NCBI RefSeq assembly: GCF_009789675.1
Contig: NZ_CP046915.1
Coordinates: 1,364,001 to 1,428,000 of the forward strand
From: Paraburkholderia acidisoli
GTDB lineage: Bacteria > Pseudomonadota > Gammaproteobacteria > Burkholderiales > Burkholderiaceae
Direction: 5' to 3'
DNA: 64,000 bases
Of the stretch, positions 54,246-60,259 are shown one piece after another; the stretch's first letter is position 1; each line of letters opens with the position of its first letter. The notes below the pieces were generated by a model. The model searched no databases, was not told where the DNA came from, and was given only the letters and a program-made list of their open reading frames with translations. Both the position numbers and the translations under genes were made by a program.

Positions 54246-55028
54246 ATGAACACCCCGTATCTGACTCGCACGATGCCAGCCAGCAACAAGGTTCCCGAAG
54301 TCACGCTGGCATTCTGGCTCATCAAGATTCTTTCCACGACCGTGGGAGAAACCGGCGCCGACTTTCTCGCCGTCAACCTCGGCCTCGGTCAGGGTTTCAC
54401 GATTCTGATCATGGGCGTATTGCTCGGCGCCGTGTGGATCGCGCAATTGCGCAGCCGGGACTGCGTGCTCTGGCTCTATTGGCTCGCGGTCGTGCTGGTG
54501 AGCATTGTCGGCACGCAGATCACCGACATCATGACCGACAAGCTCGGCATTCCGCTCGTACTCAGCGCGAGCGTTTTCGCGGCACTTCTCGTGGCGATCT
54601 TCGGCATCTGGTATCGGGTGGAAGGCACGCTCTCGATCCACACCATCGTGACGCGCCAACGCGAAGTCTTCTACTGGTCGGCCGTGCTCTGCACGTTCGC
54701 GCTCGGCACCGCCGCGGGCGACCTCGCCACGGAGGCGTGGGGACTCGGCTTCACGCGCGGTGTGCTGCTCTTCGGCACGCTGATCGCCATCACCTATATC
54801 GGCTTCCGGCGCGGCGCGAACGCCGTACTGACGTTCTGGGTCGCCTATGTGCTGACGCGGCCCTTCGGCGCATCGCTCGGCGACCTGTTGACGCAGTCCA
54901 CGAATTACGGCGGGCTCGGGCTCGGCGCGCTGTGGACGAGCGCGTTGTTTCTCTGCGCCATCGTGGGGCTCGTCGCGCTATGCCACCTCGCACCGAATTC
55001 CGCTTTCGTCAGTCGTACTCCGAAGTAA
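54246..55028 (+). CDS. Integral membrane protein, COG4705-like, unknown function
   Basis: A 260-residue, roughly eight-helix inner-membrane protein. An internal duplication is evident: [21 protein letters not shown] near residues 21-41 is echoed by [20 protein letters not shown] near 140-159 and [21 protein letters not shown] near 197-217, each a helix followed by a small-residue and Asp turn. These features match the COG4705 group of uncharacterised membrane-anchored proteins. It is followed 23 bp later by a small secreted-protein gene. The TAAG-type box upstream suggests regulator control shared with other genes here. Function is unknown. Confidence 0.75.
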
Positions 55029-55538: not shown

Positions 55539-56480
55539 TTAACACTCGCTCGCAAGCGGTTTGCGCGCCGAGAGGAACGCCATGCGATTCACGGAGAGCA
55601 GGTTTGTTTGACCGATGCGCGAGCGCATAACCTGCTCGAACAGCGCACGCTCTTCCGCATTGAATTGCTCGGCCATGACCGTACGCAACGTGGGCGCCCA
55701 GGGAAACGGCGTGCTGTCGAGCAGCGTGTCCCACGACTGATGTTGCGGCGGCCGCGTCACATCGACATGAAACTCCATGTGAATGGCTTCGAAACCGGCT
55801 TGCATCGCGAAACCGACCAGGTCGCGCTCGCTGAAACTGGTCATGGGAACGCGCGCCGCTTCGGCTTCCGTGTCGGGATACTGCGTGCGTTTCCAGCGAT
55901 ACATCAGCTCGAAAAAGCGATTTTCGGGCGCGGCGGCATTCATGGCAACGAGCGTGCGTAGCGAACAGACCTCGAACGCTTCGTCGCGGCGGATCGGTTC
56001 CGCCAACGAAATCCGGCCACCGGGCTTGAGCACGCGAAACATCTCCGCGAGCGCGGCGGTCTTGTCGGGCAAATAGCCGAGTACGGCGCGCGTGGTTACC
56101 GCATCCACGCAGGCATCCGGCACTCGCAGCGCCGGTAGCGAACTTCGAATCCACGCGCACTGCGCCTGCACGCCCGCTTCTTCGGCGCGCTGGATGGCGC
56201 GCGTAATCAGTCTGGGCGAGACATCGACCATCAACACGTCGAGTTCCGAGCCTATACGCTCGATCGCGCGCAACGCCACCGCGCCCTCGCCGCATCCGGC
56301 GTCGAGAAGCGTCATGCCGGCACGCAACGCCGCGGCGTCCAGCAGCCGGTCGATGTCGGCGTTCAGGGCCGCGCGCAGGGATCGTTCGACCTCGGCATCG
56401 TTCGAAAAGCGGTCCGACATCAGCCAGTCGGCCCAAAGATCCGCGTTAGCCGTGATGTCGGAAGCGCTCGCTATCGTCAT
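55539..56480 (-). CDS. SAM-dependent methyltransferase, class I
   Basis: A 313-residue cytoplasmic enzyme. Motif I is LLDAGCGEGAVALRAI (residues 58-73); the acidic end of strand 2 is LMVDVSP, motif post-I region AWIRSSLPALRVPDACVDAV, and motif III FRVLKPGGRISLAEP. The C-terminal part (about 190-300) is a substrate cap with FFELMYRWKRTQYPD and TSFSERDLVGFAMQAG. It may methylate a small molecule or a peptide; the acceptor is unknown. It is convergent with the small periplasmic gene and lies downstream of the orphan regulator gene on the same strand, with its own TAAG-type box. Confidence 0.85.
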   Translation of the reverse strand: MTIASASDITANADLWADWLMSDRFSNDAEVERSLRAALNADIDRLLDAAALRAGMTLLDAGCGEGAVALRAIERIGSELDVLMVDVSPRLITRAIQRAEEAGVQAQCAWIRSSLPALRVPDACVDAVTTRAVLGYLPDKTAALAEMFRVLKPGGRISLAEPIRRDEAFEVCSLRTLVAMNAAAPENRFFELMYRWKRTQYPDTEAEAARVPMTSFSERDLVGFAMQAGFEAIHMEFHVDVTRPPQHQSWDTLLDSTPFPWAPTLRTVMAEQFNAEERALFEQVMRSRIGQTNLLSVNRMAFLSARKPLASEC

Positions 56481-57273: not shown

Positions 57274-57290
57274 CTTAGCTGAACCTTAAC
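57274..57290 (-). promoter_or_regulatory. TAAG-N7-TAAG box upstream of the orphan regulator gene
   Basis: On the minus strand it reads GTTAAGGTTCAGCTAAG, followed by TCAG as at 45 kb. The half-sites start 11 bp apart. The box overlaps the 3' end of the SerC-like gene. Confidence 0.65.
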
Positions 57291-58404
57291 AACGCCCACC
57301 GAAAGCCTTACACGCGAGTCGAAGCGAATTCGCGCAGCGTGTCGCACAGCGCCTGCACCGCCGGTTCCGTGACCGCGTTGTACAGCGATGCGCGATGCCG
57401 CCCACCGAACGATGGCCTTCGAGTCCGATCAGGCCCTTCGCTTCGCAAAGCGCCACGAACTCGCGGTCGCGCCCGGCACTGCCAAACGAAAATGCCACGT
57501 TCATGCGGGAACGCCACGGCGAGTGCGCATGAACGCGCACGAACTCGCCGAGCTGGTCGAGCGTTTCGTAGAGATTCGCGGCCTTGCGATCGTTGATGTC
57601 TTTCATGCGGTCGAGCCCGCCGATCTCCGTTTTCAGCCAGCGCGTCACCAGCGTCAGCACGTAGATCGCGAACACGGGCGGCGTGTTGTAGTTGGAACGA
57701 TGCGCAATGTGCGTGCGATAGTCGAGAATCGCCGGGAGACCGGCCGGAATGCGCTCGAGCCAGGCCCGCTTCACGATCGCGACCGTCACGCCGGAAGGCC
57801 CGAGATTCTTCTGTGCGTGCGCGTAGATCATCGCGAAGCGACCGGTATCCACGGGCTCGGAGAGAAAATCCGACGACATGTCCACCACCACGGGAACCGT
57901 GGCGGGCGCGTCCATCTGGCCGAACTGCAGCCCTTCGACGGTTTCGTTGGAAACGTAATGCAGGTACGCCGCCTCGCGAGGAATCTCGAGTTCGGACCAG
58001 CGCGGCAACGCGCGATATCCCGAAGCCGCGCCGTCCCAGATCACTTCGGCCGCGCCCACGCGCTTCGCCTCGGCGCTGGCGCGGCGGCTCCAGTAGCCGG
58101 AATCGACGTATTGCGGCGGCGCGAAGCCGGGGCCCGCGAAGTTCATCGGCACCATGGCGAATTGCAGGCTGCTGCCGCCCTGCATGAACGCAATCTCGTC
58201 GCCCTCGCCGAGACCGAGCAGCGCCCGCAGGTTATTGCTGGCTTCTTCCACGAGGTCGACGAACCAGGTCGAGCGGTGACTCATTCCGAGTACCGAGACG
58301 CCGGTTTCCGGCAACGCGCGAATCGCCTGCTGGGTCTGCTCCAGCACGCTCTCCGGCAACGCGCCCGGACCGCCCGAAAAGTTATGGATAGTCGGCACTT
58401 TCAT
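57286..58404 (-). CDS. SerC-like PLP aminotransferase, C-terminus frameshifted
   Basis: A 372-residue class V aminotransferase related to phosphoserine aminotransferase: IHNFSGGPGALPESVLEQTQ, SVLGMSHRS, MQGGSSLQF and the Schiff-base lysine in YAHAQKNLGPSGV. After GHRSVGGI the frame is wrong: the normal ending RASLYNAVTEP...REFASTRV lies in another frame and stops at 57308. One missing base near 57394 (ATCGCGC instead of ATCCGCGC on the coding strand) explains it. The lost segment includes the substrate-binding Arg of GG-x-RAS, so the product as read is probably impaired. The start overlaps the ATP-grasp gene stop by ATGA. As part of a peptide/ATP-grasp operon it is unlikely to be the housekeeping SerC. 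Confidence 0.75.
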   Translation of the reverse strand: MKVPTIHNFSGGPGALPESVLEQTQQAIRALPETGVSVLGMSHRSTWFVDLVEEASNNLRALLGLGEGDEIAFMQGGSSLQFAMVPMNFAGPGFAPPQYVDSGYWSRRASAEAKRVGAAEVIWDGAASGYRALPRWSELEIPREAAYLHYVSNETVEGLQFGQMDAPATVPVVVDMSSDFLSEPVDTGRFAMIYAHAQKNLGPSGVTVAIVKRAWLERIPAGLPAILDYRTHIAHRSNYNTPPVFAIYVLTLVTRWLKTEIGGLDRMKDINDRKAANLYETLDQLGEFVRVHAHSPWRSRMNVAFSFGSAGRDREFVALCEAKGLIGLEGHRSVGGIAHRCTTRSRNRRCRRCATRCANSLRLACKAFGGRC

Positions 58405-59654
58405 GGCTCAACTCGTCCTTCTCGTCCTTCTCGTGCCTTGCGGGTCACCATGGCGCAAAATGCGTCGAAATACTTTCGCATCTGCGGCGACTTATAGGGA
58501 AACATCTCCGGGTCGTCCATGTCGTGCACTACCATGGCCGTGGCCAGTTCGAAAATCACGAGGCGCCCATCGGGACTTTCCGCGCAATCCAGTCCCACGT
58601 AATCGAGTCCGGTCAACTCCGCTACGCGCGCGAGCGCGTTGCTGTGGCGGCGGGCGAAGTCCTGCTGGAACGCCGCCATGAATGCCGCTTCTTCGCTCCG
58701 CCGCTCCGGATGCGAGATCATTTCCTCGTAGGGATAGTGCACCATCCAATGCTGCGAGATACCCATATGACTGATATGCGCCTGGCCGTCGATCAACGCG
58801 ACACGGTACTTTCGATACAGCCCGTCGCGACTGCGATAGTCGATGAACGACGCCACGTAGAACGCATCGCTTGCCGACTTGTTGAGATACGCGCGCAGCT
58901 CGCCGCTATCGGCAATGCGCTCCAGTTCGCGACCGGCGTGCGAACCCACTGGCCGGATGATCGCCGGAAACGCGATGCCGGCCACGCAGTCCGTTGACGA
59001 CACGCTCGCGTGCGCGGCCAGTTCGGCGCGGCCCACGCGCTGCGTGTGCGCCACACAGATGCCCGCTTCCTCGCGCAACAGCGACCAGGCCGCTTCCCGG
59101 CTCGTGTACGGAATGCGCTCGGGCCGATTGATGACCGCAGCCGACAGCTGCGGGAGTTGCGCCGCCAGCGAGGCCAGCACGGCGCGGTTCTGGTCGAGCG
59201 CGCAGGGCGCGACGAGCAGCACGTCGTGCGGCGGCAACCGGCCGTTCAGGTCCAGCGTGGCGTCCACATAGAGCACGTCGATCTCGAGTTCCGAATGCTC
59301 AACGAGGCATTCGAACGGCGTGTTCGTCATCAAATCGCCATGCGCCTTGAGCACCAGCAATTTCACGCGGCCCGGTGTGGTGTTTTCCGCGTCGAGCCGG
59401 TACAGCCGCTTCGTTTCGATCGCGAGTTGTTGCACCGCGAGCGCCGAGGCGCGTTCGAATTTCAGTTCGAGCACCAGCGAGAGATCGAGCAAGGCCTCTG
59501 GTGCATAGTGCTTCCGCACATAGTCGAGAAGCCGCTCGCCGAGACCCGACATGTCGCTGCCGTTCGTGGCCATGCGAAGCAGTGCCGCAAGGCCGATGGG
59601 GCGATAGGGGGCTGACTCGAATCGGTCGCCGTTGCCCAGGTCACTGTGTTCCAT
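58401..59654 (-). CDS. ATP-grasp-like protein with helical N-terminal domain, unknown function
   Basis: A 417-residue protein. Residues about 20-90 are helical and TPR-like (LLDYVRKHYAPEALLDLSLV, LAVQQLAIETKRLYRL). A Rossmann-like part follows (VKLLVLKAHGDLMTNTPFE, HDVLLVAP). The C-terminal half resembles an ATP-grasp ligase: AIIRPVGSHAG, FYVASFIDYRS, YRKYRVALIDGQ, HWMVHYP and LDCAESPDGRLVIFELATAMV, with Asp and Glu at the magnesium positions but Ala where Asn is usual. Start 59654 has an AGAGGAAGG ribosome site; an ATG at 59684 adds 10 residues without one. A peptide gene lies upstream and an aminotransferase gene overlaps downstream. Confidence 0.7.
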   Translation of the reverse strand: MEHSDLGNGDRFESAPYRPIGLAALLRMATNGSDMSGLGERLLDYVRKHYAPEALLDLSLVLELKFERASALAVQQLAIETKRLYRLDAENTTPGRVKLLVLKAHGDLMTNTPFECLVEHSELEIDVLYVDATLDLNGRLPPHDVLLVAPCALDQNRAVLASLAAQLPQLSAAVINRPERIPYTSREAAWSLLREEAGICVAHTQRVGRAELAAHASVSSTDCVAGIAFPAIIRPVGSHAGRELERIADSGELRAYLNKSASDAFYVASFIDYRSRDGLYRKYRVALIDGQAHISHMGISQHWMVHYPYEEMISHPERRSEEAAFMAAFQQDFARRHSNALARVAELTGLDYVGLDCAESPDGRLVIFELATAMVVHDMDDPEMFPYKSPQMRKYFDAFCAMVTRKAREGREGRVEP

Positions 59655-59690
59655 ACCTTCCTCTACCGCATTTGAATCGGGCATCGCGCA

Positions 59691-59888
59691 CTATGCTTTG
59701 TCTACCGCGAGATCGCGGAGCAAGGGCAATTCGCCGATATAGCCGACTTCGGTTTCGAGAAACAGCGATGCGACCCGCTCCGGCTGGCTGGCAGGGTTGG
59801 CGGGCGTGGCGGGGGAAGGCGTGGGGATAGCGATCGTTTGCGCCGTGACGAGCGTCAAACGAGGGCGTGATGATGATGGCGTGCGCAA
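59691..59888 (-). CDS. 65-residue peptide, possible substrate or precursor of the ATP-grasp protein
   Basis: The start is TTG at 59888, supported by AAAGGA six bases upstream. Residues 1-20 are basic and polar (RTPSSSRPRLTLVTAQT), 21-38 are rich in Pro, Ser, Thr and Ala (IPTPSPATPANPASQ), and 39-65 form an acidic amphipathic tail (RVASLFLETEVGYIGELP, then LLRDLAVDKA). There is no signal peptide. The stop is 36 bp before the ATP-grasp gene. The size, modular composition and position resemble a ribosomally made peptide precursor or a carrier peptide, but no known core motif is recognised. It may equally be a small accessory protein. Confidence 0.6.
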   Translation of the reverse strand: MRTPSSSRPRLTLVTAQTIAIPTPSPATPANPASQPERVASLFLETEVGYIGELPLLRDLAVDKA

Positions 59889-60259
59889 GGCGAATCCTTT
59901 GTCTGCATCGGGACGATGCGTCCCGATCCTTCACCGGGCCATGGATCGAACTCCGGAGACAGCGACACAGTAGTTTCCCTTAACTGATGAAATGCTTAAG
60001 CACAGCCAATATCGAGTGAGATTCCGAAATATTGTGGAAATGTAATTAATATTGCACGAGTCAATTCACGCTGATTGAAAGAATCGCGGCTTAATAAATT
60101 AAATTAAACTAACTCGTCACTGTTGGCGTGCATACACGTACGTGGGCGGGAAGCCGACGTTGCTCGACTACGTGAAGAATTAATCGAGGCAAAGGGAGCC
60201 AGCAAAACGGACGCCGGCGGCGCCGGCATCCGCGGTTGGCGCGTCGCGTGGCTCCGCCG
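59889..60259. other. 371-bp AT-rich region with a possible gene remnant
   Basis: This is the most AT-rich stretch of the window (about 59990-60115). It holds CTTAAC (59979) and CTTAAG (59995) half-sites that resemble the TAAG-type boxes but with different spacing. Bases 60130-60183 encode AYTYVGGKPTLLDYVKN followed by TAA on the plus strand, which reads like the C-terminal end of a lost gene. The aroQ-side terminator closes the region at 60209-60231. No intact gene is seen. Confidence 0.5.
60209..60231 (-). terminator. Rho-independent terminator after aroQ
   Basis: GCCGGC (60213-60218) pairs with GCCGGC (60222-60227) and flanking GGA with TCC, loop 3 nt. On the minus strand a GTTTTGC U-tract follows. 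It lies 29 bp beyond the aroQ stop codon. Confidence 0.7.

Follow-up and report, generated by a model that had tools for sequence, protein, structure and literature searches.

A candidate protein-modification pair, an ATP-grasp ligase and a SerC paralogue, encoded with a small peptide gene in Paraburkholderia acidisoli

The 64,000-nucleotide stretch analysed here (hereafter the window; C3:1364001-1428000 in the 7.9-Mb genome G000 of Paraburkholderia acidisoli) carries on its minus strand a cassette of three genes: a 65-codon peptide gene, an ATP-grasp ligase gene and a gene for a paralogue of the aminotransferase SerC. We propose, with a probability of about 0.4, that the two enzymes form an amino-acid ligase pair for the modification of a protein, probably flagellin, and that the peptide is a dispensable co-translated partner or regulator. 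The frequent location of ligase relatives among flagellar genes suggests a little-known flagellar protein modification rather than a new peptide antibiotic. We infer the chemistry, the protein acted on and what the peptide does as follows. The SerC paralogue would make a phosphoserine-like amino acid, the helical front of the ligase would recruit a target, with flagellin or some other flagellar protein the likeliest, and the ATP-grasp domain would activate a carboxylate and couple the amino acid to it, or else to a group that the protein already bears. The peptide, which in one clade of mainly Burkholderiaceae is made just before the ligase, would be a dispensable partner (adaptor, decoy or regulator) acting on the ligase through its [WF]F..EVGY[IV]GE motif. 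If true, a SerC paralogue with a protein-recruiting amino-acid ligase would constitute an unfamiliar route of bacterial flagella decoration and give testable roles to genes labelled merely 'RimK family ligase' and 'phosphoserine transaminase'. The peptide, with its short constrained motif and repeated loss, would be a good case for separating substrate, adaptor and regulator. A literature search, mostly in sources short of full text, returned no account of the ligase-SerC pair or of the peptide. The features of the cassette are the following:

59691..59888, minus strand: peptide gene, 65 codons, TTG start (open reading frame (ORF), family alignment, leave-one-out profile and position in relatives)
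59730..59762, minus strand: conserved motif FLETEVGYIGE, codons 43-53 (consensus [WF]F..EVGY[IVL][GS]E, lowered non-synonymous change)
59895..59900, minus strand: AAAGGA, likely ribosome site of the peptide gene (upstream sequence)
58401..59684, minus strand: ATP-grasp ORF, 427 amino acids from the first ATG (RimK/LysX-like domain and helical TPR-like front)
57286..58404, minus strand: aminotransferase gene, SerC-like paralogue of PRK12462 type (the family match of the ORF ends at model position 338)
57314..57412 (G000:C3:1421314-1421412), minus strand: remainder of the SerC family sequence in a different frame (second matching piece)

This layout agrees with the original prediction, made from the sequence of the window. 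AAAGGA is separated by six bases from the TTG of the peptide gene, and the coordinates of the ATP-grasp and SerC-like ORFs bear out their overlap by ATGA. The predicted 36-bp gap after the peptide gene fits a ligase start at the ATG of codon 11 (about 59654), which is the likely one, and not at the first ATG of the ORF.

In the structure model of the ligase, which is a confident one, a RimK/LysX-like domain spans approximately residues 107-419 and is preceded by four helices (32-91). The N-terminus had been predicted to be TPR-like, a name that is taken from the helix pattern. The best fold matches were LysX/ArgX, including LysW-bound entries, and RimK, and another match (E 0.0086) was to a LysX-type fold; these lists were dominated by the ATP-grasp part. 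LysX/ArgX and RimK attach amino acids to a protein or a carrier peptide, LysX acting on LysW and RimK on S6. No Pfam family matched the ATP-grasp protein at a meaningful level, and NCBIfam returned only the RimK, CofF, LysX and MptN models, all far under their cut-offs. The protein differs from the S6 glutamate ligase RimK in its score (21.4 bits with the RimK model TIGR00768, below the cut-off of 143.4), its extra helical front, its SerC partner and its metal segment, which lacks the usual Asn. The altered segment, also part of the original prediction, reads E-x-A here versus E-x-N in 18 of 18 matched segments of a paralogous TPR-ATP-grasp group.

Among 81 loci encoding the ligase or its relatives, one of them in the window, flagellar genes were found in 35, the window stretch itself not being among these (tblastn E 1e-8; MotA, MotB and FliA excluded). 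When one representative per neighbour cluster was tested, Pfam supported FlgA, FlgB/FlgC-type rod proteins, FlgD, FlgE, FlgN, FlgM, MotA/B, flagellins, FlgK, an FlgL-type protein, FliK, FliM, FliL, FliT, FliS, FliD and FlaG, and such neighbours, of different kinds, recurred across families. Of the loci of at least 17 kb, 23 out of 46 carried flagellar genes, compared with none of 40 arbitrary 17-kb stretches taken at 40 positions in 20 Burkholderiaceae-family genomes (Fisher P 3e-8, ignoring kinship). Among the 14 loci labelled as carrying the peptide, a flagellin was present near three (L024, L027 and L029), as well as near L170 of a 398-genome family sample, all within about 6 kb; L168 and L165 are the contigs of L029 and L023, respectively, and were not counted twice. 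Taken together, the flagellar neighbourhood, the helical front and the RimK/LysX fold favour protein modification as the likelier function of the two enzymes.

ATP-grasp proteins are also encoded among proved or likely flagellin-modification genes, namely SfmE of Shewanella and CDR20291_0245 of C. difficile (PMC3765264, PMC5207246). According to the accessible parts of these sources, their partners are a NeuB-type synthase, a thiamine pyrophosphate enzyme, a reductase and a methyltransferase, or glycosyltransferases and others; they differ from the cassette in that none is described there as SerC or a peptide, and the likeness is one of description. The FlmG-type TPR glycosyltransferase combines, in the part of the source available, a TPR front and a catalytic domain into a modular protein modifier (PMC7591256). 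The ligase shares this organization and a TPR/GT9-like protein adjoins the L027 cassette, but the catalytic domain is here an ATP-grasp ligase instead of a glycosyltransferase. The L027 protein (L027:5610-7532), of FlmG-like architecture, lies between the flagellin and the peptide cassette.

The second enzyme of the pair scored 505.4 bits with PRK12462 (NF009112), under the cut-off of 563, and its match ended at model position 338. The family sequence continues in another frame, which indicates a frame shift close to the 3' end of the gene as assembled. The shift may be genuine or an assembly error, and the cassette of the window strain may be decaying. The SHR and QKN motifs were present in all 33 SerC cluster members, window included, and the tail motif GHRS.GG.R.S in 32, being out of frame only in the window; we take the three to be SerC active-site motifs. 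The tail is intact in L021, L023, L026, L036 and L039. Among 144 genomes of the same genus (the genus sample), 18 encoded a PRK12462-type protein over the cut-off, and C1 of the window genome encodes another SerC, which is less closely related (38% identity with the L039 query).

A SerC gene was near the ATP-grasp gene in 37 of the 81 loci, the window being one of them and L025 an example without it. Conversely, 35 of 50 PRK12462-type places in the genus (E <=1e-110) fell within 3.5 kb of an ATP-grasp place, a count that may be low because the ATP-grasp list (n=70: 66 at the cut plus four added from a separate search) was cut at E 1e-60. Many of these 35 pairs belong to the more distant group of paralogues, in which the metal segment is still E-x-N. 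In this group, L189-L203 hold a separate pair of SerC paralogue and TPR-ATP-grasp protein with intact E-x-N and no flagellar gene found near, and a TPR/GT41-type protein adjoins the pair in L192, L194 and L199.

In 30 of the 81 loci (our own clustering; L091 counted on a putative fused frame), the ligase is instead accompanied by a group II pyridoxal phosphate (PLP) decarboxylase and/or an enzyme of about 520 residues. The latter, whose gene follows that of the ATP-grasp protein in 23 loci (L085:9203-10765 and relatives), matched nothing in Pfam or NCBIfam and nothing useful in the PDB; judged by eye, it looks PLP-dependent. These partnerships, together with the lack of a flagellar neighbour at most peptide loci, would suit a small-molecule pathway in which the product of SerC and ligase is a free, dipeptide-like metabolite and the linkage to flagellar genes comes from island positions that they share. 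We consider such a pathway distinctly improbable: flagellar neighbours of different kinds recur across families, and TPR-like helical fronts such as that of the ligase are common in protein-binding enzymes. In the Undibacterium-type loci, L070:3147-4118, which adjoins FlaG and the PLP decarboxylase, gave a weak, below-cut-off match to a zinc metallopeptidase family.

With regard to the peptide, a word-based search of 5.8 billion proteins found the window's own frame as the sole match, and the DNA of relatives was therefore examined instead. Twelve of the 80 related loci had a frame with the EVGY-type motif directly before the ATP-grasp gene, the one in L032 being split. In the alignment of the 11 unsplit relatives and the window (A2), M1, L11, P36, G49 and Y50 were invariant and E47 and V48 almost invariant; Leu replaces the motif Tyr in two additional sequences, of which one is a relic. 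When a profile built without the window row was run on 1,095 window frames, the peptide ranked first with E 1.2e-5, against 0.61 for the runner-up, and leaving out its two nearest kin as well gave E 5.5e-6. On this sequence evidence, the 65-codon gene is genuine and not a chance frame, and its conservation in relatives, on which the original prediction depended, was found. Over the 80 loci, the peptide profile detected no further copy outside the clade at a meaningful E (best other 0.31) and none inside flagellar genes.

Approximately 13 residues, [WF]F..EVGY[IV]GE.P, appear to be under selection. The ratio of non-synonymous to synonymous change (pN/pS) was 0.29 in this 13-codon core (9 synonymous and 11 non-synonymous changes) and 0.93 in the rest, from four pairs and small numbers and with a core picked after its conservation was known. 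Synonymous sites of the motif were not slowed (pS 0.30 vs 0.24), indicating that selection acts on the amino acids, while the peptide outside the motif looks nearly neutral. When the whole peptide was tested in two close pairs, the true frame was not clearly better than the other two and only the core stood out. Peptide length is 63-77 residues in its clade, C-terminal ends vary across A2, and the motif-to-stop distance differs among members.

A constrained core acting at the amino-acid level between near-neutral flanks, in a dispensable and predicted unstructured peptide encoded just upstream of the pair on the same strand in the members examined, is also what might be expected of a regulatory leader, which would act as a nascent chain or by translational coupling and adjust, through its motif, how the two downstream genes are translated. 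We hold this to be a doubtful explanation, since about 65 residues is long for a leader peptide, the distance from motif to stop is variable and Rfam had no match up to E 1.

Co-occurrence ties the peptide to the ligase. Peptide searches scored 43 (genus sample) or 15 (family sample) candidates in most genomes, so that weak or partial peptides can be missed. In the genus sample, the peptide occupied 15 places in 14 genomes, ten of them corresponding to the window and loci among the 80 and five being new (G148, G113, G139 and two in G138). ATP-grasp orthologues above 600 bits, a line set after the table was known, were located at 19 places in 17 genomes. Such an orthologue lies next to the peptide gene at 14 of its 15 places, and the remaining one (G139, L111) has a remnant of the ATP-grasp start downstream, read by eye. 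Both genes were present in 13 genomes, the peptide only in 1, the ATP-grasp gene only in 4 and neither in 126 (Fisher P 3e-14, ignoring kinship and shared rows), which upholds the predicted co-conservation of the pair. Of the four ATP-grasp-only genomes, G084 and G068 proved on a second look to carry a partial peptide next to the ligase, and G116 and G114 showed none. In the family sample, the peptide was detected in six genomes, always beside the ATP-grasp gene, which was itself present in 19 at E 1e-120; three of the six are within the genus sample, two correspond to L029 and L033 and one is new (G329).

The 14 peptide-labelled loci, including the split L032 and L053, where a partial peptide is retained, all fell into one clade of 20 (support 100/99) when a tree was made of 81 ATP-grasp proteins. 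The unlabelled members are L021, L023, L026, L030, L036 and L039 and, if there was one gain, they would represent at least four separate peptide losses; in L026 and L039 the sequence covers about 350 bases ahead of the match, and an unusually distant peptide start could be missed there. The peptide genes of L032 (G070), L053 (G084), L111 (G139) and L181 (G068) are broken, partial or relics and the SerC stretch of L030 carries a stop (G097:C222), which suggests that some cassettes are decaying. Homologues of the ligase outside the clade had no detectable peptide. The original prediction, which was to fall if ATP-grasp homologues consistently lacked the peptide gene, is thus contradicted in part: the peptide was not found outside one clade or, in the limited-candidate searches, in five relatives. 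Where it was found, the peptide always lay beside the ligase or its remnant.

These data bear on the pathway first envisaged for the cassette, that of a carrier peptide or a ribosomally synthesized and post-translationally modified peptide (RiPP), in which the ligase would attach a SerC-derived amino acid to a Glu of EVGY[IV]GE and the loaded peptide would be the product or an intermediate. The LysX/ArgX and RimK folds with their amino-acid attachment precedents, the exclusive position of the peptide beside this ligase or its remnant, and the almost touching peptide stop and ligase start of some members speak for it; it could also use the aldo/keto reductase encoded near L024, L027, L028 and L029. 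In contrast, five relatives retain ligase and SerC with the peptide not found in the limited-candidate genome searches (G116 (L021), G192 (L023), G195 (L036), G205 (L039) and G227). Moreover, no acidic position is invariant, the Glu before VGY being Ser in L033 and the one after it Ala in L025, and the neighbour clusters inspected, in a set that is mostly unannotated, include no kinase, protease or transporter that is repeatedly associated with the peptide. Repeated loss, near-neutral flanks and the absence of an invariant acceptor argue against a precursor or obligatory carrier, and we regard this pathway as unlikely: the peptide chemistry of the original prediction is possible but not the best reading. 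A variant in which the SerC paralogue supplies phosphoserine or a relative, the ligase loads EVGY[IV]GE and the peptide hands the group to flagellin or its glycan, peptide-less lineages loading flagellin directly, seems to us very improbable. As a separate observation, the four peptide loci named above, and also L052 and L059, have the aldo/keto reductase gene at no more than about 6 kb from the cassette.

The cassette resembles the LysX/ArgX-LysW amino-group carrier system in its ATP-grasp fold, which is shared with RimK and others, and in encoding a small protein together with an amino-acid ligase. However, LysW has zinc-binding cysteines and a C-terminal EDWGE, whereas the window peptide has no cysteine and ends in AVDKA; in addition, the later pathway enzymes were not seen here, the peptide is lost while the ligase stays, the metal segment is altered and the helical front is extra. 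Graspetides likewise combine an ATP-grasp ligase with a precursor-like peptide, but this ligase matched the RimK, CofF, LysX and MptN models alone, and no acidic residue, Ser, Thr or Lys was found among the invariant peptide columns. PsnB chains did appear further down its Foldseek list (ranks 37 and 45). In the main text of a graspetide survey (PMC8939145), there was no mention of SerC, phosphoserine, flagell- or Burkholderia.

Several results weigh against a flagellar protein-modification pair with a peptide partner. The control stretches came solely from Burkholderiaceae-family genomes, none from Gallionella or Acetobacter; the distant paralogue loci had no flagellar link (0 of 20); and 11 of the 14 peptide-labelled loci, including the window's own 16-kb stretch, had no flagellar gene. 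Fifteen of the 50 SerC-paralogue places were without a listed ATP-grasp gene nearby, and the sole one inspected (L208) had no match. The usual Asn two positions after the metal Glu was missing in all 13 aligned members, so that activity of the ligase is not assured. Finally, no ATP-grasp column tracked peptide presence (0; 12 vs 5 sequences), and the structure model of the peptide showed no structure (predicted local distance difference test score, pLDDT, 61.7).

Two specific ideas about the peptide were discarded. Mimicry of flagellin by the motif was suggested by a one-register alignment with the C-terminal signature of three neighbouring flagellins, but shuffled motifs did equally well in 18, 40 and 57 of 300 cases. 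A position-specific scan placed the sites at fractions 0.0005 to 0.15 of 329,984 positions, the site being best within its own protein only in L023, and in the reverse scan 30% to nearly 100% of 2,075 background frames scored as high as the peptides. A Glu-Tyr spacing like that of the pyrroloquinoline quinone (PQQ) precursor was dropped, its position not being conserved.

One further gene had been included in the predicted set:

55539..56480, minus strand: methyltransferase downstream of the cassette (a response regulator gene lies between the two)

It is present as described, but tblastn, at E 1e-10 and 60% coverage of its length, found it in 0 of the 80 related loci, and the methyltransferase does not travel with the cassette. 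A DUF347 gene at window positions 54246-55028 is also present downstream of the L019 cassette, so the window and L019 may share a site, and another lies near the ATP-grasp gene of L080.

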